From the NCBI GenBank assembly GCA_016342715.1, contig JAEINW010000030.1, positions 1 to 33,254 of the forward strand: a stretch of DNA of 33,254 bases, read 5' to 3'. Shown in pieces: positions 13,984 to 33,254 of the stretch. This DNA is from Salinivirgaceae bacterium. GTDB taxonomy: Bacteria > Bacteroidota > Bacteroidia > Bacteroidales > SZUA-534. A model generated the notes under the pieces. It was given only the letters and a program-made list of their open reading frames with translations, had not been told where the DNA came from and ran no database searches. The translations under genes and the position numbers were made by a program. How positions within the stretch are numbered: position 1 is the first letter of the stretch; every line of letters starts with the position of its first letter.

Positions 13984-15030
13984 TTAATTTTCCAATGTTT
14001 TTAGCAACTCTGCAATAGAAAAATCAGCTTTACAAATTACTTCATCAGAAGCTCCATAATACATCGACACTTTATCACCATCAACTATATGTCCGTTTGT
14101 AAATACAACATTTCCAAAAAACCCTTCTTGCTCATATTTTGCAATAGGTTCCATTATTGGTTTATTACTGCGCGCAACAACTATCGACGGATCATCTAAA
14201 TCTAAAAGCAGTAAACCTAAACAATAACGATGCTCCTCGGTTGCGCCATGGTATATTTCGAGCCATCCTTTTTCGGTTCTTATTGGTGCTGCACCTGCCC
14301 CAAGTCGTGCACTATCCCACATCCCTTTTCGTGTAGTGGCCAATAATTTATGATTTCCCCAATGTAAACCATCAGGCGATTCAGCTATCCATATATAGTT
14401 TCCTCCTAATTCCGGACTACTCGGACGATGTAAAGCATAATATTTACCATTTATGCTTTCTTCAAACAATGCACAATCTTTATTATGCGGAGGAAACATC
14501 ATGCCTTTTCTTTCAATACTCTTCCAATCTTTAGTAAAAATATATCCCACAGCAACGGCATAAGGCGATACCATTGTATATGTAAGATGAAAACCATCGG
14601 CACGAGTTGCAACTCTGCAATCTTCTATTCCAAAACTCTCTAAAATACCTTTTCCTATAATTGGTTTATATCCTTCAGGCTCATAGAATTTTTCACCATC
14701 ATCACTACACACTAATCGTAAATGAGAAAGTGTTGTTAAATAGTCTTTTCCTTTATATTTAATTATGCGTGCATCGCTAGCATCTAAATCCTGATCGTCT
14801 TCATTAAAACTTAACACCTCAACAAATCCTTCTGCGTTAAAAATTGGAAAACTAATTTTGCCTGGTTCCTGAACTGGACGTTCGGCAACTCTTAATAGTA
14901 ACCATTTTTTATTCTCAAATTGAAATACTCCCGGGTTTAATAAACATTCAATCTCCATGCCTGGTATGCTAGGAGTTATATCAATAGGCCGCATTATTGG
15001 GTTTGATTTTGATCGTATTGCGTTATCCAT
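13984..15030 (-). CDS. GH130 family glycoside phosphorylase (possible mannoside phosphorylase)
   Basis: A five-bladed propeller enzyme of GH130, whose members phosphorolyse (or in some subfamilies hydrolyse) beta-mannosides. The 348-residue protein lacks a signal peptide, so it acts in the cytoplasm. The GH130 core is visible: GIEDCRV with the catalytic Asp137, NKDCALF (183-189), LHRPSS with Arg202, DSARLGAGAAPI with Arg242, and GWLEIYHG with His261. The retained Arg202/Arg242 basic residues fit phosphate binding and favour a phosphorylase over a hydrolase. The usual EDPR motif reads EDCR here, and the Lys often found in the DS-K-G motif is Arg. It is the first gene of the leftward operon, 30-40 nt after a consensus promoter, and abuts an MFS transporter. 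Subfamily and exact linkage are not assigned. Confidence 0.92.
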   Translation of the reverse strand: MDNAIRSKSNPIMRPIDITPSIPGMEIECLLNPGVFQFENKKWLLLRVAERPVQEPGKISFPIFNAEGFVEVLSFNEDDQDLDASDARIIKYKGKDYLTTLSHLRLVCSDDGEKFYEPEGYKPIIGKGILESFGIEDCRVATRADGFHLTYTMVSPYAVAVGYIFTKDWKSIERKGMMFPPHNKDCALFEESINGKYYALHRPSSPELGGNYIWIAESPDGLHWGNHKLLATTRKGMWDSARLGAGAAPIRTEKGWLEIYHGATEEHRYCLGLLLLDLDDPSIVVARSNKPIMEPIAKYEQEGFFGNVVFTNGHIVDGDKVSMYYGASDEVICKADFSIAELLKTLEN

Positions 15031-15066: not shown

Positions 15067-15095
15067 CAAAGCTACAACCAGCCCTTTGTAAACAA
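15067..15095 (-). promoter_or_regulatory. Bacteroidota-type promoter for the PUL operon
   Basis: On the minus strand, TAGCTTTG (15074 down to 15067) matches the Bacteroidota -7 consensus TAnnTTTG exactly. A TTG at 15095-15093 lies 18 nt upstream, a suitable distance for the -33 element. Transcription would start near 15060, leaving about a 30-nt leader before the GH130 start codon at 15030. It is the only full consensus match noticed in 15031-15616. Whether the neighbouring hybrid regulator binds next to it cannot be read from the sequence. Confidence 0.55.
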
Positions 15096-15214
15096 GTGCA
15101 ATATAGAACCAACAGTGTGTACTATACTACCTAAATACTGAAATAGAACTCTATTACACACATTTGGGAATAGAGTATCCTAAACTGCATTTCCTTGTAA
15201 ATTCTTAAGTCATG

Positions 15215-15462
15215 CGAATCAAGGGTTGAAATTATTTGTTTTTCAGGCTGAAAGCCTAATTTAGTTCAGCCCAATGCAACGCATTGGGTTTTTGATAAGT
15301 AGAAATTAGCGTCCTGTAAGGACAATTGAAATTAAGCTGCCTTTTCAAGGCGATTATTTGTTCGCGATTTTAAGACCCAAGGCGTTGCCTTTGGGTTGAA
15401 TTTAACTGCACTTTCAGTGCGTTATATTGAAAACGTATTGTCAAATTTCAACCCTTGATTCG
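15215..15462. repeat. Six-hairpin element enclosed by a perfect 19-bp inverted repeat
   Basis: The arm CGAATCAAGGGTTGAAATT (15215-15233) is exactly complementary to 15444-15462. Between the arms are six hairpins: AGGCT-gaa-AGCCT (15245-15257), CCCAATGC-aac-GCATTGGG (15270-15288), GTCCT-gta-AGGAC (15311-15323), GCCTT-ttc-AAGGC (15339-15351), CCCAAGGC-gtt-GCCTTTGGG with one bulged base (15376-15395), and GCACT-ttc-AGTGC (15408-15420). Stem lengths 5-8-5 are mirrored as 5-8-5, and the spacers are similar in mirror order (12, 22, 15, 24, 12). The element occupies the centre of the 586-bp divergent region 15031-15616. No other gene is seen in that region. Confidence 0.85.
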
Positions 15463-15616
15463 TATAAGTCATAATTTAATATTGGATACTAACTTAAGAA
15501 TTTATTTCGCTAAGTAAAATCGATAATTTGGATACGATGGATACAATTATGGAAACCAGGTACACGCTATTAAAAGCTGTTTTGGTTATTTTTACAAAAT
15601 ACTAAGAAAACAATTC

Positions 15617-18600
15617 ATGAAAAACATAAGTACTACATTATTATGCATTTTTACCTCGGTTGTAATTGGCAATGCACAACAAATAAATATTGATAAAATT
15701 GATTTAATGCCCAATATTCCTAATCCTATGGAAATTCAAGATTGGAAGAGTGTTACATCGGCCTATGATTCATTGGTATTTTCATCATTAAACCAAGGAA
15801 CTTACCTACCATTAGTTAGTAATTGGGAAAGCGGCATTGTTATAACTAATGAACCTACATTTGGACTCCCAAGTTATGTGGGCAGCGAAATGCCAACTCG
15901 TGGTGAAGCTATTAATATGATACCCGCTTTAATAAGCGCTTCATTAATTGGTATTGACAAAACAAATCAATTCGGAAAAAATTGGGTTGAAATGATTCGT
16001 GATTTTTTTAATCCCGATCAAGGGGTCTATGTCAATAATCCCGGTGGAAAAACAGGAAGTGATTGGTGGTATGATACTATGTGTAACATTTTCTTTTATC
16101 AGTTAAAAAGTCTTTACCCTGAAACATTAGAATTCAATACTCAATTCCGCAGCATTGCTGATAGTTGGCTAGAGGCGGTTGTTGCAATGGGAGGCAGTGC
16201 AACACCATGGCAAGTACCCTATATGAATTATAGAGCCTGGAATTTGGAAACTATGGAACCTCTTGATGAGGGTGTTATAGAACCTGAAGCAGCCGGAGCA
16301 ATTGGTTGGATACTCTATAATGCATTTGTAGAAACTGGTGAAGATAAATATAGAATTGGCGCAGAATGGTGTATCGAATTTTTAAACAGTTTAGATGAAA
16401 ATCCAAGTTACGAATTGCAACTTCCTTATGGAATATATACTGCGGCAAGAATGAACGCTGAACTTAATACAAACTATGATATTGAAAAGATGGTTAATTG
16501 GTCGTTTGATATTGGTCCATTGCGAGAGTGGGGATGCATAATTGGAACCTGGAACGGCAATGATGTATCGGGACTAATTGGTGAAGCCGAAGCTTCATAT
16601 CCTGACTATGCCTTTTTTATGAATGGTGCAGAGCAATTTGGAGCTTTGGTTCCAATGGTGCGTTACGACGACCGCTTTGCACGTGCCATTGGAAAATGGG
16701 CACTAAACCTTACCAATGCATCACGTCTGTTTTACAGTGCATATCATGATGCCGAGCACCAAGATAATAAAGATTGGATTAGCCAATACGATACAAAAGG
16801 AGGTATGGCTTATGAAGCTTTAAAAGAAAGTAAAAATGGAATAGAAGGTTACGCTACAGGTGATGCTATGGGCGGTGGATGGGCAGAAACTAACCTTTGC
16901 CTTTATGGATCATCTCATGCCGGTATTTTTGGAGGAATAATTTCCGAGGTTCATAACAGCAACATACTTCAGCTCGACCTACTTAAAACAGATTATTATG
17001 GTGCTGAAGCGTATCCATCATTTCTATTTTTCAACCCACTTAATACATCATCAAATATTCAGATGACTCTTCCTACTGGGACTTGGAATATTTACGATGC
17101 AACACAAAACACGGTGCTTAATACTACCGTTTCCAATTCAACAACAATAACACTCACCACAGATGAAGGTACAATTATAGTACTTGTACCGAGCGATAAA
17201 CCAATTGAACATATTGGTCAAAAAAGTTTGGCTGGTGGTATTGTAATTGATTATAACAATGGACAAGTACAAGACTCAAAATTACCAAGATTAAAAACAA
17301 TTGCTGCTGAAGACACCTTGGTTGAATTTGGTTCACTTACTAAAATATATTGTACCGTTGATCAAGAAATTGAACAAACGCTGCAATACCAATGGCTTAT
17401 TGATGGAATAGTTATTACCACTGAGACTAAAGATAGCATGGTATTTTTAGCCGGCAATATCGAAAAACAGTCAATAATTAAATGCATTGTTAGCGAAACA
17501 AACGGATGGACAGATTCGGCATCTTTAAAAATTACAACTATAAATGCGGTTCCAATTGCACCAAAAATTAATTCTATTGAGGCTGAACCAAGAAAAATAG
17601 AACCCTCTGCTTCATCGACCTTTACTACTTATGCAACAGATTTGAATAATGACTCATTGAGTTATCTGTGGTTCAACATAAGTGGAGATATCATTGGCAA
17701 CACGCCTTCAATTATTTGGAATGCACCATTAGAAGAAGGAATATATAGCTTTAGCTGTAAAGTAACTGATACTGATCTACTGTATGATATAGCATCTATA
17801 GATATTCTTGTACGAAGAGAACAAGAACAGGCTGTTCTTGTTGCTGATTACCCTTTAAATGGAAATGCCAGAGATATTTCAATAAACAAGAATCATGGTA
17901 TTGCACAATATGTTGAATACTATGGCGAACCTGATGCTTTTTTGGGTAAATCTGCTTTTTTGAACAACGGCCAGTCACTAATACGCATTCCTAATAATAC
18001 AGAACAACAAGGAAATACTGCTTTAGCAATTGCTTTCGCCTTCAAAATCGATAATATTCCAAGCAATGAGGCATTTATAATCTCGCACGGCAGTTGGCAA
18101 GAACGTTGGAAATTTTCGATTTCAGATGGAAAGCTTCGCTTTACTATGAAAACTACTTCAAAAACAGTAGATATAGACAGTGATCTATTGGAAACAAATA
18201 AATGGTATGAAGTTGTTGGTCAATATTCTGGGACTGAACTTGAACTTTATATGAACAAGAAACTAGTCGTATTTAATACATTAGTTGGAGAAATTTCAAA
18301 TACACCAAAAGATATTTCGGTAGGCCAAATGTTACCCAACGATTTCAACTATCCTTTTTCAGGATATATTGATAATTTGCTAATTTTTACTGGTACTCTG
18401 ACAAATCAAGAGATTGATACAATACATGAAATTTATGATAGTATTCGTTTAATTGCTAATTCTGAACAGATTATTTGCTATCCAAATCCAGCAAACGATC
18501 AAATCAATCTAATATTTCCAAAACATAGTGTAACAAAAGCCAATATTTCAATCTATTCAATAAGTGGGCAATGCATTTACAAAGAATTAATCGCTATTTT

Positions 18601-18721
18601 AGATGAGTCGACAAATTATTCAATTAATATATCGCAACTAAAATCGGGAGTATATTTTCTTAAAACTAATATAAATAACGAAAGCTACGCAGCAAAAATA
18701 ATTAAAATACATGCCCCATAA
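15617..18721 (+). CDS. T9SS-secreted multidomain paralog of the PUL lipoprotein, with LamG module
   Basis: A 1034-residue exported protein. A signal peptide (about 1-20, ending GNA-Q) is followed by an uncharacterised N-terminal domain (about 25-550) sharing ordered blocks with the 571-residue lipoprotein: EAIN, GIDKTNQ, DWWYD, TAARMNAE, NWSFD, YAFFMN, LVPMVRYD, IGKW, RLFY, YGSSHAGIFGG and TDYYGAEAYP. Then come two Ig/PKD-like beta domains (about 558-640 and 645-735), a LamG lectin domain (about 741-942), and a type IX secretion type-A sorting domain (about 949-1034) with YPNPANDQINL, IYSISGQ and LKSGVYFLK. So the protein should be exported through T9SS and attached to the surface or released. 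The N-terminal domain probably acts on the PUL glycan and LamG binds it, but catalysis is inferred. It is divergent from the main operon and 121 nt ahead of the regulator gene. Confidence 0.93.
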   Translation: MKNISTTLLCIFTSVVIGNAQQINIDKIDLMPNIPNPMEIQDWKSVTSAYDSLVFSSLNQGTYLPLVSNWESGIVITNEPTFGLPSYVGSEMPTRGEAINMIPALISASLIGIDKTNQFGKNWVEMIRDFFNPDQGVYVNNPGGKTGSDWWYDTMCNIFFYQLKSLYPETLEFNTQFRSIADSWLEAVVAMGGSATPWQVPYMNYRAWNLETMEPLDEGVIEPEAAGAIGWILYNAFVETGEDKYRIGAEWCIEFLNSLDENPSYELQLPYGIYTAARMNAELNTNYDIEKMVNWSFDIGPLREWGCIIGTWNGNDVSGLIGEAEASYPDYAFFMNGAEQFGALVPMVRYDDRFARAIGKWALNLTNASRLFYSAYHDAEHQDNKDWISQYDTKGGMAYEALKESKNGIEGYATGDAMGGGWAETNLCLYGSSHAGIFGGIISEVHNSNILQLDLLKTDYYGAEAYPSFLFFNPLNTSSNIQMTLPTGTWNIYDATQNTVLNTTVSNSTTITLTTDEGTIIVLVPSDKPIEHIGQKSLAGGIVIDYNNGQVQDSKLPRLKTIAAEDTLVEFGSLTKIYCTVDQEIEQTLQYQWLIDGIVITTETKDSMVFLAGNIEKQSIIKCIVSETNGWTDSASLKITTINAVPIAPKINSIEAEPRKIEPSASSTFTTYATDLNNDSLSYLWFNISGDIIGNTPSIIWNAPLEEGIYSFSCKVTDTDLLYDIASIDILVRREQEQAVLVADYPLNGNARDISINKNHGIAQYVEYYGEPDAFLGKSAFLNNGQSLIRIPNNTEQQGNTALAIAFAFKIDNIPSNEAFIISHGSWQERWKFSISDGKLRFTMKTTSKTVDIDSDLLETNKWYEVVGQYSGTELELYMNKKLVVFNTLVGEISNTPKDISVGQMLPNDFNYPFSGYIDNLLIFTGTLTNQEIDTIHEIYDSIRLIANSEQIICYPNPANDQINLIFPKHSVTKANISIYSISGQCIYKELIAILDESTNYSINISQLKSGVYFLKTNINNESYAAKIIKIHAP

Positions 18722-18842
18722 TATTCCTTTCCTTTTAAGCACTTTTCATTTTATCGATATTCTATTTTATTAATCGTAGAAATAGCGCTAAATTTATTGA
18801 AAAAACAACTTAAATATGCTGCTTCAGTTGATATGTAAAATA

Positions 18843-21800
18843 ATGAAATTAAGCCTATTATTGTTATTTATAATCATAGCTCCACTATTATATGCTTATG
18901 AAAATACTGGTGTGCAACACGAAAATATTGGCAACAACAATGGCCTTTCAAATAGTGCCGTAACATTAACCTACGAAGATTCAAGAGCTTACGTATGGTT
19001 TGGAACTTGGGATGGATTAAATAGGTACGATGGAAGTGAAATTGTAGTTTTTAAACCAAATCCATTAAAAGAAGGGTTTATTAGTAATAATATAATAAGA
19101 GATATATTTGAAGATGCAAACAATAATCTATGGGTAGTTACAGAAAATGGCATTAATCGCTATAACTATGCCAACGATAGTTTCGAGGCACATCTTGTTG
19201 ATTTTAATACCAAAGAATATAAAGAGAATCAGTACATAGCCAAAGCATCCTACGATGGCTCCATTTATTGTTTAATTAAGGAAATTGGTTTTTATAAGTA
19301 TAATACTGAAAACAAGAGTTTTGATAATTTACGTAGCTCTACCAGCAAAGGCATTATAAATTTCTTTATCGACGATAATAACAATGCTTTTTTTATTTCT
19401 AAAAATGGAATAGTCGAGCATTATTTATTAAACCCCTATAGCCTTATTAAAGAGTATAATTTAAACCAAACCATTAATGCAGAAAATACATGGCTAATTG
19501 AAAACAATTTAATACACTATCTTGCTTATTCTCCAGAACTTGGTATAATAAACTTTCTTTCCATTGAGAATTCAAATGTCATACAAATAAATTTACCTTC
19601 AAGCCTAATGCTTGCTACAACAATAAAAGCTTCTAAAAGCAGCAATAAATACTGGATTGGATGCGATAATGGCGAAATTATTAGCATTGAAAAGCTAACA
19701 TCGGAAAAGCCAATTATTAAGCAAATCTTTTTGGAAAAAATTTCGGAGCTCAACATTAAAATATGGGATATTTCTGAAACAAACCCAGACCTGTTATGGA
19801 TTGGAACAGACGGGAATGGCGTTCATAAATACTCATTTAACGGGAAACCATTTCACCGTTTAACTAAAGGCGATTTGACAAAAGGAAAGCTTTCACATAA
19901 TATAGTTAGGGCGATTACTGAAACTAAATATGGTGATTTTTTTATTGGAACACGAGGTGCTGGATTAAACAAGGTTAAGTTTGGCAAAAGCACTCAAGAA
20001 ATTAATATTAATAATGGCTTATCTAATAATGCCGTTTTATCGCTTGAAATTGACAAATATGAAAATATTTGGATTGGAACCGATGGAGAAGGAATTGATA
20101 TGCTCGATATAAAAAATGGAAAAATATACCACTTCCCCGATGATTTTTTAAATGCTCCAAACCTTAATTTCCGCTCCGTTTATGCTATTTGTTTAGATAC
20201 CTATGGTAATATTTGGATTGGCACAAGTGGATACGGAATTATACAACTATATATAGAGAAAAATAAAGATAATTGTTACACGGTTAAGCATTGGGAGCAG
20301 TTTAATACGAACACCCAAAATGGACTAATAAGCAATATAATATATGCTATTGAAGAAGGCGAACCAAATACTCTATGGATTGGCAGCAGAAGAGGCGGCC
20401 TTCAAAAATTCAATACATTAACAAAGAAATTTAATGCCTTACATATTAATGATAAAGAAATTCTTAATAACAACGATGTTCTTTCAATTTGCTACAATCA
20501 TAACCAGGAATTATGGGTAGGAACCAGTGGTGGGCTAAACCATATTAATTTATCAATAAATCCTTTAGAAGTAACTTATTATACCGAAAATACCAATTTA
20601 GCTAATAATACTATACATGCTATTGAACAAGATAAACTCGGTAATATATGGGTTAGCACAAACAAAGGCCTATGCAAAATTGATAGAGAAACAAATGTAA
20701 TTTCCAACTTTAATTCAACTGATGGATTAGGGAATTTAGAATATACTGATGGTGCCTCATTTCAAAGCATGAAATCAGGAAACATTTACTTTGGCGGTAT
20801 TAATGGGATAGACTGGTTTCACCCCGATTCAATTTTAATATCCCAACATTTTCCAAAGTTAGTAATTACTGATTTTTACATAAATCAAGAAAAACAAATA
20901 GCAGAAAAAAAAGGCTCGCCATTAACAAAGCACATTAGCGAAATCGACACGCTTTTATTAAGCCACAATCAAAACTTCTTTTCGTTCTCATTAACAACGC
21001 TTAACTTTCATAATAAAACAAAAACTGAGTACGCCTACATACTTGAAAATTTCTATCCTGAATGGATAAAAGTGAAAAATGGGCGAAATATTTCATTTAC
21101 AAACGTTCCTCCTGGTGAATACAACTTCAGAGTGCGCTGGACAAATGAAGATGGAATTTGGAATAAAGAAGAACATTCAATATTTATTAAAATTAAACCC
21201 GCTTGGTATCAAACCATATTAGCATATATATGTTATTTTATAGTAATATTATCACTTACAATCGTAGTATTTAGGTTTTATATTTGGCGCGAAAAAGAGA
21301 AAAACAAACTTGTTGTACAAGAAATTAAGTATCAAAAACTTGAGGAAATTAATCAATATAAGCTTCAATTTTTCACGAATATTGCTCACGAATTCAGAAC
21401 CCCGTTAACCTTAATTATGGCACCAGCTATTTCTCTGCTAGAAAAGTTTGAAAATAATTCAACTATAGGGCCAGCACTCAAAACAATACATAATAATTCA
21501 AAAAAACTAATTACACTTATTGCAGAATTAACCGACTTTAGAAAGATAGAGACTGGTAATAGACGACTGAGAATTCAATTTTCGAATCTGACTCAATCAA
21601 TATTAAAAATTACAGAGGTATTTTTACCATTTGCAGAACAAAATAATGTCAAACTTAAATTTAATAGTAAAATATCCGTGTCTGGTTGGTTTGATTCTAA
21701 TGTGATTGAAAAAATTATCACAAATTTAATTTCAAATGCAATAAAATATACGCCAAAAGGAGGTAGGGTTACCGTTAATATTGAGCAATCAGATAATAAT

Positions 21801-22925
21801 GCCATTATATCAGTTATTGATACAGGAATTGGTATGTCAAAAGAAGTACAAAAAAAAGTGTTCGATCGGTTTTTCTACCAATCAAGTGAATTACCAAAAT
21901 TAAAAGGAGCACCTGAAGGTTCTGGCGTAGGATTAGCACTAACAAAAAGTTTAATTGACTTACACCGAGGCACAATAGTACTTAAAAGTTCATTGGGAAA
22001 AGGCTCTATTTTTAAGCTTACAATCCCCATACATAAAGACCTTTTCAAAGAGGATGAAATAATTGAATCTGAAAATCTTTCGCCAATATCAAATGACCCT
22101 TGTTTAGAATTTATCCCTGAAACATCTTCAAAAAAAATATTAACTCTACCGTCAAATAGTATAAAAATACTTATTGTTGATGATAACTGTCAAATAAGAG
22201 AATTATTAAAAGATGTATTAGCCGAATATAACATCTTAGAAGCTGAAGATGGACAAGATGCTGTGTCGATACTTTGCGCAGAACATATTGACATAGTAAT
22301 TAGTGATGTTATAATGCCAATCATGGATGGACTTGAACTTTGCCGCTACATTAAACAAAACTTTGATACTTGTCATATACCAGTTATACTATTAACCGCA
22401 AAAGGAAGTGTTGAGCACCGAATTGAAGGTATTGAAGAAGGTGCAGACAGCTATATCCCAAAACCTTTTGATCCACGACATTTAAGAGCTCGTGTTTATC
22501 AATTAATTGAATCAAGAAATAAACTTCGTCAAACCATAGCAAATGAAGGATTTATTCCAACCGAGCTTATTGCAGATTATGATACTCGAGATTCTAAATT
22601 TATTAAATCACTAAATCAATTTATTAATAAAAACATAGATGTTGCTGAATTGAACTCTGAATCGATGATGCAAGAATTGTCAGTTAGCAAAACTCAATTA
22701 TACCGAAAGGTAAAGGCACTCACAGACCTAACTCCTCATGGTTACCTAAAAAGAATTAGAATTAAATCTGCATTGCAATTATTAGAAACTACTGATTTAA
22801 GTGTTTCTGAAATAATTGATAAAACGGGATTCAATAACCGAACTTATTTCTATCGTACATTTAAAGAAGAGTTTGGAACCTCACCTAAAGAATACATTAA
22901 AAAGTCTAATTCAAATAATATTTAA
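18843..22925 (+). CDS. Hybrid two-component system sensor/regulator (HTCS) of the PUL
   Basis: A single protein combining sensor kinase and response regulator, which senses glycan fragments in the periplasm and activates PUL genes. From the start at 18843 (1360 residues): signal peptide (1-18); two-component propeller repeats with recurring WIGT/NIWIGT motifs (about 25-690); a Y_Y_Y domain (about 700-780); one membrane helix (about 790-812); HisKA with FFTNIAHEFRTPL and phospho-acceptor His849; HATPase with NLISNAIKY, DTGIGM and GSGVGLAL; receiver domain with phospho-acceptor Asp1155 in ISDVIMP and Lys in KPF; and a C-terminal AraC helix-turn-helix (about 1255-1355, ending FGTSPKEYIKK). An in-frame ATG at 18816 would add nine residues; 18843 gives a clean signal peptide. 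All phosphorelay residues are present, so it appears functional. Confidence 0.96.
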   Translation: MKLSLLLLFIIIAPLLYAYENTGVQHENIGNNNGLSNSAVTLTYEDSRAYVWFGTWDGLNRYDGSEIVVFKPNPLKEGFISNNIIRDIFEDANNNLWVVTENGINRYNYANDSFEAHLVDFNTKEYKENQYIAKASYDGSIYCLIKEIGFYKYNTENKSFDNLRSSTSKGIINFFIDDNNNAFFISKNGIVEHYLLNPYSLIKEYNLNQTINAENTWLIENNLIHYLAYSPELGIINFLSIENSNVIQINLPSSLMLATTIKASKSSNKYWIGCDNGEIISIEKLTSEKPIIKQIFLEKISELNIKIWDISETNPDLLWIGTDGNGVHKYSFNGKPFHRLTKGDLTKGKLSHNIVRAITETKYGDFFIGTRGAGLNKVKFGKSTQEININNGLSNNAVLSLEIDKYENIWIGTDGEGIDMLDIKNGKIYHFPDDFLNAPNLNFRSVYAICLDTYGNIWIGTSGYGIIQLYIEKNKDNCYTVKHWEQFNTNTQNGLISNIIYAIEEGEPNTLWIGSRRGGLQKFNTLTKKFNALHINDKEILNNNDVLSICYNHNQELWVGTSGGLNHINLSINPLEVTYYTENTNLANNTIHAIEQDKLGNIWVSTNKGLCKIDRETNVISNFNSTDGLGNLEYTDGASFQSMKSGNIYFGGINGIDWFHPDSILISQHFPKLVITDFYINQEKQIAEKKGSPLTKHISEIDTLLLSHNQNFFSFSLTTLNFHNKTKTEYAYILENFYPEWIKVKNGRNISFTNVPPGEYNFRVRWTNEDGIWNKEEHSIFIKIKPAWYQTILAYICYFIVILSLTIVVFRFYIWREKEKNKLVVQEIKYQKLEEINQYKLQFFTNIAHEFRTPLTLIMAPAISLLEKFENNSTIGPALKTIHNNSKKLITLIAELTDFRKIETGNRRLRIQFSNLTQSILKITEVFLPFAEQNNVKLKFNSKISVSGWFDSNVIEKIITNLISNAIKYTPKGGRVTVNIEQSDNNAIISVIDTGIGMSKEVQKKVFDRFFYQSSELPKLKGAPEGSGVGLALTKSLIDLHRGTIVLKSSLGKGSIFKLTIPIHKDLFKEDEIIESENLSPISNDPCLEFIPETSSKKILTLPSNSIKILIVDDNCQIRELLKDVLAEYNILEAEDGQDAVSILCAEHIDIVISDVIMPIMDGLELCRYIKQNFDTCHIPVILLTAKGSVEHRIEGIEEGADSYIPKPFDPRHLRARVYQLIESRNKLRQTIANEGFIPTELIADYDTRDSKFIKSLNQFINKNIDVAELNSESMMQELSVSKTQLYRKVKALTDLTPHGYLKRIRIKSALQLLETTDLSVSEIIDKTGFNNRTYFYRTFKEEFGTSPKEYIKKSNSNNI

Positions 22926-30253: not shown

Positions 30254-30479
30254 AAGGAAACATAAAGCCTGTAAGGCTTACATATTTCAACTTGGGGCAA
30301 CGCCCCAAGCACAAGCAACCGCAAAAAACCGTCGCAAGCAGCCAGATTTAATTATTAGCAAAAATCAGCATGCGACGAAACAAACAGCATAAAAAAAACA
30401 GGGAACATTTTGTTACATAAAAACAACAACAACAAATAAAACCACTGCTTGCAGCTATTTTATTCGATACCCAATTCCT
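30254..30479. repeat. 226-bp perfect direct repeat, copy 1
   Basis: Positions 30254-30479 match 33029-33254 base for base in the stretches compared, with a constant offset of 2775. The repeat holds three structures: AAGCCT-gta-AGGCTT (30265-30279), CTTGGGGC-aac-GCCCCAAG (30291-30309) and CGTCGCA...TGCGACG (30330-30336 with 30371-30377). It has no open reading frame of note and no transposase. The left boundary is sharp; the right boundary is unknown because copy 2 runs into the window end. Confidence 0.92.
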
Positions 30480-30539
30480 TGCGTTGTCCAAGGCTTAATT
30501 AAGAAAGTCCTCCAGGCATTTACTTATTATTCCCTCTCA

Positions 30540-33028: not shown

Positions 33029-33254
33029 AAGGAAACATAAAGCCTGTAAGGCTTACATATTTCAACTTGGGGCAACGCCCCAAGCACAAGCAACCGCAAA
33101 AAACCGTCGCAAGCAGCCAGATTTAATTATTAGCAAAAATCAGCATGCGACGAAACAAACAGCATAAAAAAAACAGGGAACATTTTGTTACATAAAAACA
33201 ACAACAACAAATAAAACCACTGCTTGCAGCTATTTTATTCGATACCCAATTCCT
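33029..33254. repeat. 226-bp perfect direct repeat, copy 2, cut by window end
   Basis: Identical in sequence and orientation to 30254-30479, including the hairpins at 33040-33054 and 33066-33084. The match runs to the final base of the window, so its true length is at least 226 bp. Confidence 0.92.

Follow-up and report, generated by a model that had tools for sequence, protein, structure and literature searches.

The stretch of DNA analysed here (the window) comprises 33,254 nucleotides from a Salinivirgaceae bacterium and carries a locus with SusC-, SusD-, GH13- and GH130-type genes, in fair agreement with the PUL setting that had been proposed when the letters alone were inspected (the sequence-only reading). 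Beside the divergent PUL genes, at 18816-22925 on the plus strand, lies a hybrid two-component regulator (Reg_prop, HisKA, response regulator and AraC-type HTH), which is more likely the controller of the locus. The element under study sits at 15215-15462, between the divergent genes 13984-15030 (minus strand) and 15617-18721 (plus strand). Direct analysis of the sequence confirms the six hairpins with 5-8-5/5-8-5 stems and the perfect 19-bp closing stem that had been reported for it; the stem lengths are right, except that one of the 8-bp stems, at 15376-15395, contains a 1-nt bulge. The description as an inverted pair of three-hairpin units, here termed modules R and L, is also correct:

15240-15330, plus strand: three-hairpin module R (covariance model 87.3 bits, E 1.6e-16, the window modules belonging to the training set of the model; structure scan)
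15245-15257, plus strand: HP-A of module R, 5 bp, loop GAA
15270-15288, plus strand: HP-B of module R, 8 bp, loop AAC
15311-15323, plus strand: HP-C of module R, 5 bp, loop GTA
15332-15425, minus strand: three-hairpin module L, inverted (covariance model 91.0 bits, E 2.6e-17, with the same training set; structure scan)
15339-15351, plus-strand reading: HP-C of module L, 5 bp, loop TTC
15376-15395, plus-strand reading: HP-B of module L, 8 pairs with a one-base bulge, loop GTT
15408-15420, plus-strand reading: HP-A of module L, 5 bp, loop TTC

Neither the fold nor the architecture is reached by shuffled sequences. The DNA fold of the element has an energy of -57.7 kcal/mol, whereas shuffled versions average -24.7 kcal/mol (z -8.7) and none of 200 does as well, and the predicted RNA fold is strong on both strands (z -8.8 and -8.9). 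A module rule, which specifies three hairpins with set stems and spacings, is matched on both strands of the real element and on neither strand of 1000 dinucleotide shuffles made from its 254 bases.

The region had also been described as lying between two divergent promoter regions: divergent genes are indeed found on both sides, but the promoter motif TTTG-N17-22-TAnnTTTG did not turn up in a simple scan of the intergenic sequence, which contained a single TAnnTTTG, at 15067-15074 on the minus strand. An Rfam scan of the whole window gave no match at the gathering score, and no orthologous intergenic region was found in 19 other genomes of the family, where, besides matches of the element, the locus hits only a GH130-type gene, at 68%, in one genome (G004).

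The terminal repeats and the nested core

The perfect 19-bp closing stem (15215-15233/15444-15462) lies within 22-nt arms that are 95% complementary. It had been taken as part of the hairpin element; it belongs instead, as the 21-bp terminal repeat, to a different, MITE-like element, which encloses the hairpin core and is bounded as follows:

15206-15212, no strand: left target-site duplication TAAGTCA, a 7-bp direct repeat
15213-15233, plus strand: left terminal inverted repeat (TIR), 20/21 match with the right TIR
15444-15464, minus strand: right TIR, pairing with the left TIR
15465-15471, no strand: right target-site duplication TAAGTCA, a 7-bp direct repeat

The outer element thus combines 21-bp TIRs (20/21 match; type TGCGAATCAAGGGTTGAAAT) with 7-bp duplications and the lack of a gene, as MITEs do, and the chance of a 7-bp target duplication is about 2e-4 per site at the base composition of the window flanks. 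The arm TGCGAATCAAGGGTTGAAATT, or a near copy of it, also occurs as single arms, without the core, on contigs C22, C86 and C191 of the window's genome; in another genome of the family (G001:C88) a facing TIR pair surrounds an unrelated interior, with 7-bp repeats of its own (TATGTAA) immediately outside, so that each of the two complete TIR pairs has its own matching 7-bp repeats directly outside. Repeats of this kind are the signature left when a TIR-recognising transposase moves a MITE, and the TIRs together with the target duplication suggest that the last insertion at the window site was made by a TIR-recognising transposase of the cut-and-paste type. On contig C276 (L003), a 96% match over element positions 6-62 joins the left closing arm to the start of the core, so that the composite was present at more than one location.

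Other associations of hairpin units with inverted repeats were encountered. Contig C70 (L012, about 1057-2248) contains a broken tnpA-Y1 unit inside another TIR element, with GGATCA..TGATCC ends and 8-bp near-perfect direct repeats (GTTTCGTG/GTTTCATG, 7/8), so that here too a hairpin unit is carried within a TIR element. At G001:C34 (L023, about 1475-1700), the gene-less module pair nearest to that of the window is enclosed by unrelated 11-bp inverted arms (ACTTTACGAAG/CTTCGTAAAGT), which are either another closing stem or a palindrome that was already there when the pair was inserted, so that a closing stem may also have arisen in the latter way; among 20 gene-less copies of a related genus, which are described below, the flank inverted repeats (4-9 nt) are not longer than those of mispaired flanks. 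Outside the outer element of the window, a perfect 13-bp inverted repeat, TAAATTCTTAAGT, is found at 15198-15210 and 15492-15504; its left arm shares bases with the left target duplication, and it is perhaps an older palindrome at the insertion site.

A Y1 transposase gene between like modules

A search of the window's own genome (G000, 358 contigs) with the element returned 14 matches; two of these are the element and its inverted half, and the remaining 12 lie on 10 other contigs. One of the 12, on C99 (L002), is 94% identical over element positions 33-173, with decayed hairpins and without the closing arms, and that on C137 is interrupted by the contig start. On C77, C83 and C70 the matches adjoin Y1 transposase genes, and on C52, C199, C256 and C327 the match directly precedes the start of a Y1 gene that ends at the contig end or breaks off. 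The gene of the RAYT/Y1 type, for which a search had been suggested, is therefore present and is flanked by like hairpin modules. It is intact on C77 (L011), where it encodes 151 aa (Pfam Y1_Tnp, E 3.1e-18), with DNA matching element positions 213-121 upstream and 128-33 downstream. Since the two flanks of this gene match both halves of the core, the core in the window amounts to both ends of a unit of this kind with no gene between them. Broken copies of tnpA match the element on both sides on C70 and C83, and downstream only on C114.

The modules of the window are 74-80% identical to the flanks of the C77 and C83 genes (C77: 74-78%) and up to 84% identical to the gene-less pair of G001:C34; in view of this limited identity to the C77 and C83 flanks, the enzymes of the genome are no more than candidates for the cognate one. 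A second intact Y1 tnpA, on C352 (L192, G000:C352:35500-38021), has its own, different hairpin set (CTTGGGGC..GCCCCAAG), so that at least two module subfamilies coexist in the genome.

Among the best 80 of 117 confirmed relatives of the C77 protein, taken from genome contigs, the HuH motif is found in 80/80, Y---Q--HH in 77/80 and Y---NP in none, and the median length is 151 aa; by record titles they are mostly from Bacteroidota, together with MAG contigs titled Planctomycetota, Verrucomicrobia and others. By these motifs the transposase of the unit is assigned to subclass 1.2 of TnpA-Y1, which, according to Quentin et al. 2018 (PMC6006769), is generally devoid of the typical terminal IS200 structures, and for which a table of the same paper gives no REP. 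The NCBIfam IS200 model scores the transposase at 40.9 bits, below its cut-off of 55 bits, and the best match in a search of solved structures is the ISHp608 transposase (E 0.047, by itself not significant). A relative of the C77 protein at E<=1e-15 occurs in 157 of 395 sampled genomes of the window's phylum, the signature being present in 28 of the 29 loci that were fetched and checked.

The association of gene and modules extends to this wider family. Within 260 nt of the gene, a module in the right orientation is found upstream in 21 and downstream in 18 of the 80 loci (both sides in 10, either side in 29), as compared with wrong-orientation modules in 2 cases upstream and 7 downstream and with none in 785 windows more than 800 bp from the gene, on each strand. 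The perfect-stem version of the scanner, which had missed bulged 8-bp stems, gave 13/80 on each side; the rule was relaxed to one bulge or mismatch and then checked on new loci. These were 29 fetched loci, none near-identical to the first 80, of which one is without the signature ORF; the remaining 28 have right-orientation modules upstream in 12 cases, downstream in 9 and on either side in 14 (wrong orientation, 3 and 1), and no module appears in windows more than 500 bp away, scanned on one strand. With the simpler measure of at least two hairpins within 150 nt of the gene, the counts are 40/78 upstream and 52/78 downstream versus 14/1510 distant windows, and, in the replication set, 19/28 and 15/26 versus 7/314. 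The distant windows include coding DNA, hence an intergenic control, in which at least two hairpins were found in 3/63 and 2/83 flanks of other ORFs. All of these near/far counts are independent of the hand-picked alignment rows considered below. The strict rule leaves many of the genes without a module, which speaks against the reading, but the module counts are low, as the scanner found modules in just 3 of 13 related-genus loci having covariance-model hits, probably because the long hairpin there has a bigger loop.

The sequences of the modules vary widely between clades. Their spacers, within the ranges allowed by the rule, cluster at 10-12 nt (28/40) and 21-27 nt (31/40). At its 5' foot the 8-bp hairpin has a tetranucleotide that reads TCAG and TCAA in the window and whose last two bases are AG in 22 of 40 scanned modules; it was considered as a guide or cleavage site and set aside, being too loose for naming the cut.

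That the whole element might be a single TIR-type MITE, with internal hairpins that are its ordinary content and are unrelated to the Y1 transposase, is improbable. It would account for the TIRs and 7-bp target duplications that bound the whole, for the arms of the outer TIR family found elsewhere without the core and for the junction on C276, where the left TIR is joined to the module start and the composite may have moved as one; against it, Y1 tnpA genes have flanks that match the hairpin core, the core is found without these TIRs (L002, G001:C34 and the related-genus copies), and TIR copies elsewhere hold other interiors. The core at 15240-15425 is very probably a gene-less, REPIN-like derivative or relative of a subclass-1.2 Y1 (HuH) unit, lying inside a TIR-type MITE, and the suggestion of a REPIN-like non-autonomous mobile element is in this respect supported.

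Gene-less pairs, their dispersal and stem covariation

Hits of the module covariance model are present in 18 of 20 genomes of the family, and in G000 there are at least 86 at E<=0.001, a lower bound since 150 of 3976 candidates were scored, and one that covers more than one module subfamily. Among the 150 listed hits, neighbours at most 60 nt apart are arranged tail to tail, with HP-C inside, in 15 cases, head to head in one and on the same strand in 6; for neighbours 61-700 nt apart the corresponding numbers are 7, 4 and 2. Six of the seven wider tail-to-tail pairs, which have 224-666 nt between them, coincide with tnpA matches, the exception being G006:C8 (224 nt). The 15 close pairs, drawn from 8 genomes, include some that depend on one another: G017:C12 and G009:C4 represent the same site (98% over 1491 nt), and long stretches are common to G018:C35, G018:C38 and G010:C14. 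A relative of tnpA was found in 17 of the 20 family genomes. Modules were present and no tnpA was detected in G005 and G013, G002 has a tnpA with an internal TGA and lacks the module, and neither was found in G003.

In a related genus, 20 gene-less copies (the query and 19 of the listed matches, L302 being shortened at its right end) can be aligned over the whole span between the feet of the two outer hairpins (HP-A). Other short repeats occur in their flanks, which form 6 single-link groups at E 1e-5; the boundary test kept 14 copies, those with longer shared flanks (L289, L293, L296, L300, L301 and L302) being dropped. In these 14, the mean pairwise identity on the inner side, over 10 nt, is 0.80 at the left foot and 0.92 at the right, falling to 0.29 and 0.33 over the 10 nt on the outer side, so that the copies end sharply at the outer hairpins. 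No target preference is visible in the flanks of the related-genus copies. One intergenic site is occupied by the pair in G010 (the C16 query), whereas G013 and G016 lack it there and G018 retains only a single hairpin as a remnant. As the surrounding DNA has diverged, the junctions cannot be placed to the base, and the listed matches do not bring the two flanks of this site close together in the remaining genomes of the genus. The locus first used as an empty-site query, G018:C35, lies in a repeat array. Tandem or clustered arrays of modules, which resemble BIME-like clusters, were also observed in the related genus at L211 (G008:C23), L195 (G009:C58) and G015:C14:125035-125477; some of the model hits overlap by 25 nt.

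The dispersal of the copies bears on the function of the element at the window locus. A captured DNA element now serving as a cis-regulator of the PUL, either as a cruciform or as a protein-binding site, would fit the location between divergent genes, and a long palindrome could extrude as a cruciform; since related copies occur elsewhere with different immediate flanks, this reading, close to the DNA-structure control element that had been suggested, has little probability.

Covariation of the stems was analysed in 26 modules of the nearer clade, aligned by hand (alignment A1). In these eye-chosen rows, the pair counts of which lean towards well-formed modules, 97.2% of the pair cells are standard and 14 of 18 pairs have changed on both sides, with a covariation score of 0.428 as compared with at most 0.093 when the partners are slid. 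Copies lacking compensatory stem changes had been named beforehand as evidence that would tell against the element; compensatory changes are present in this set of 26. The alignment omits both sides of L034, L039, L040, L042 and L043, all of L045-L108, the upstream sides of L036, L037 and L041 and the downstream side of L031. The 461 pair cells comprise 445 Watson-Crick pairs, 3 G-T and 4 A-C. RNA is expected to tolerate G-U pairs, and therefore the equal and tiny numbers of G-T and A-C mispairs favour selection on DNA; the stem covariation with almost no G-T, in rows picked by eye, points to the same.

A large structured RNA controlling the PUL, be it a riboswitch-like leader or an sRNA, is improbable: the strong predicted RNA fold of both strands and the position between divergent genes would suit it, but there is no Rfam match, G-T pairs in the stems are as few as A-C, and related copies have different immediate flanks and adjoin transposase genes. 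A structured RNA and a dedicated PUL switch are both unlikely. An integron attC site, considered as a further candidate, is put aside because the arms of the palindrome read the wrong way.

A proposed life cycle and its relation to known systems

The reading of the core as a REPIN-like relative of a Y1 unit can be put as follows. The full unit consists of a module, a tnpA gene (Y1, subclass 1.2 by motif) and an inverted module. Within a module, the three hairpins measure about 5, 8 and 5 bp and are separated by about 10-12 and 21-27 nt. In the short form both modules are kept, tail to tail, and the gene has been lost or was never there. The transposase is envisaged to bind the modules as hairpins in single-stranded DNA, for instance in the lagging-strand template; by analogy, the subclass-1.2 enzyme would cut by means of its tyrosine and rejoin near the feet of the modules, and may in this way move or copy the unit in trans. 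Recognition of hairpins and cutting near their feet are established for IS200/IS605 elements and for TnpA-REP of the E. coli type, as stated in passages of PMC8266576. The copy in the window is now probably a passenger and may be inert, and any effect of the core on PUL promoters would be secondary.

The units combine features of several known systems. With IS200/IS605 elements (IS608 and ISDra2) they share a Y1/HuH transposase of about 150 aa, with hairpins next to its gene, and bulged stems, the stem of IS608 having an irregular base; they differ from them in having three hairpins per end, in mirror image, in place of the single small subterminal hairpin at each end that is described for these elements in PMC6006769. 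The likeness to the REPIN/BIME and REPtron systems lies in the dispersal of inverted pairs of hairpin units through the genome (15 of the 16 adjacent opposite-strand pairs being tail to tail), with multiple copies in one genome, in the presence of the same kind of unit on both sides of a Y1 transposase gene (C77) and, among the listed hits, in the excess of gene-less adjacent pairs over gene-bearing ones (15 against 6). The differences concern size, a three-hairpin module of about 80-90 nt here versus one REP of 21-65 nt in PMC6006769; the foot, where the two tetranucleotides of the window depart from the canonical GT[AG]G; and the enzyme, which by motif belongs to class 1 and not to class 2, whose Y---NP is absent from all 80 relatives. 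The fit with TnpA-Y1 subclass 1.2 is close as regards Y---Q--HH, HuH, the median length and the wealth of Bacteroidota among record titles, but the genes are here often flanked by hairpins and three-hairpin modules. As to MITEs of the TIR/TSD type, the outer element agrees with them in its 21-bp TIR, 7-bp target duplications and absence of a gene, and differs in carrying a nested REPIN-like core. No description of three-hairpin modules was found in the titles, abstracts and passages of the open-access literature that were covered, including passages of PMC6006769, PMC3733652 and PMC8266576, an absence that carries little weight.

On balance, subclass 1.2 probably represents a widespread system of single-strand DNA mobility with three-hairpin modules of its own. 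From clade to clade the modules would keep their architecture and spacing, their sequences being free to change, and the system would give rise to gene-less, REPIN-like copies that can travel inside TIR elements unrelated to it. If so, an orphan subclass of transposases would gain a substrate and become testable, the REP/REPIN idea would extend from single hairpins to composite three-hairpin modules, and hairpin-rich repeats in the intergenic DNA of Bacteroidota, otherwise open to misreading as regulatory RNA or terminators, would find an explanation. The window element also shows one kind of mobile DNA carried within another.

Module-like sequences are also seen at the edges of assembled DNA. 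Many of the module hits in G000 lie within about 200 bases of contig ends (e.g. C254:55, C34:55, C256:55, C82:33 and C9:33), and for this reason the repeats seem to break the assembly. In the window, two further, more distant module-like copies are present on the plus strand at 30261-30346 and 33036-33121 (41.8 bits each), with a weak partner on the minus strand at 30437-30523; the two copies lie inside a near-identical repeat of more than 200 bp, the second copy of which meets the contig end.
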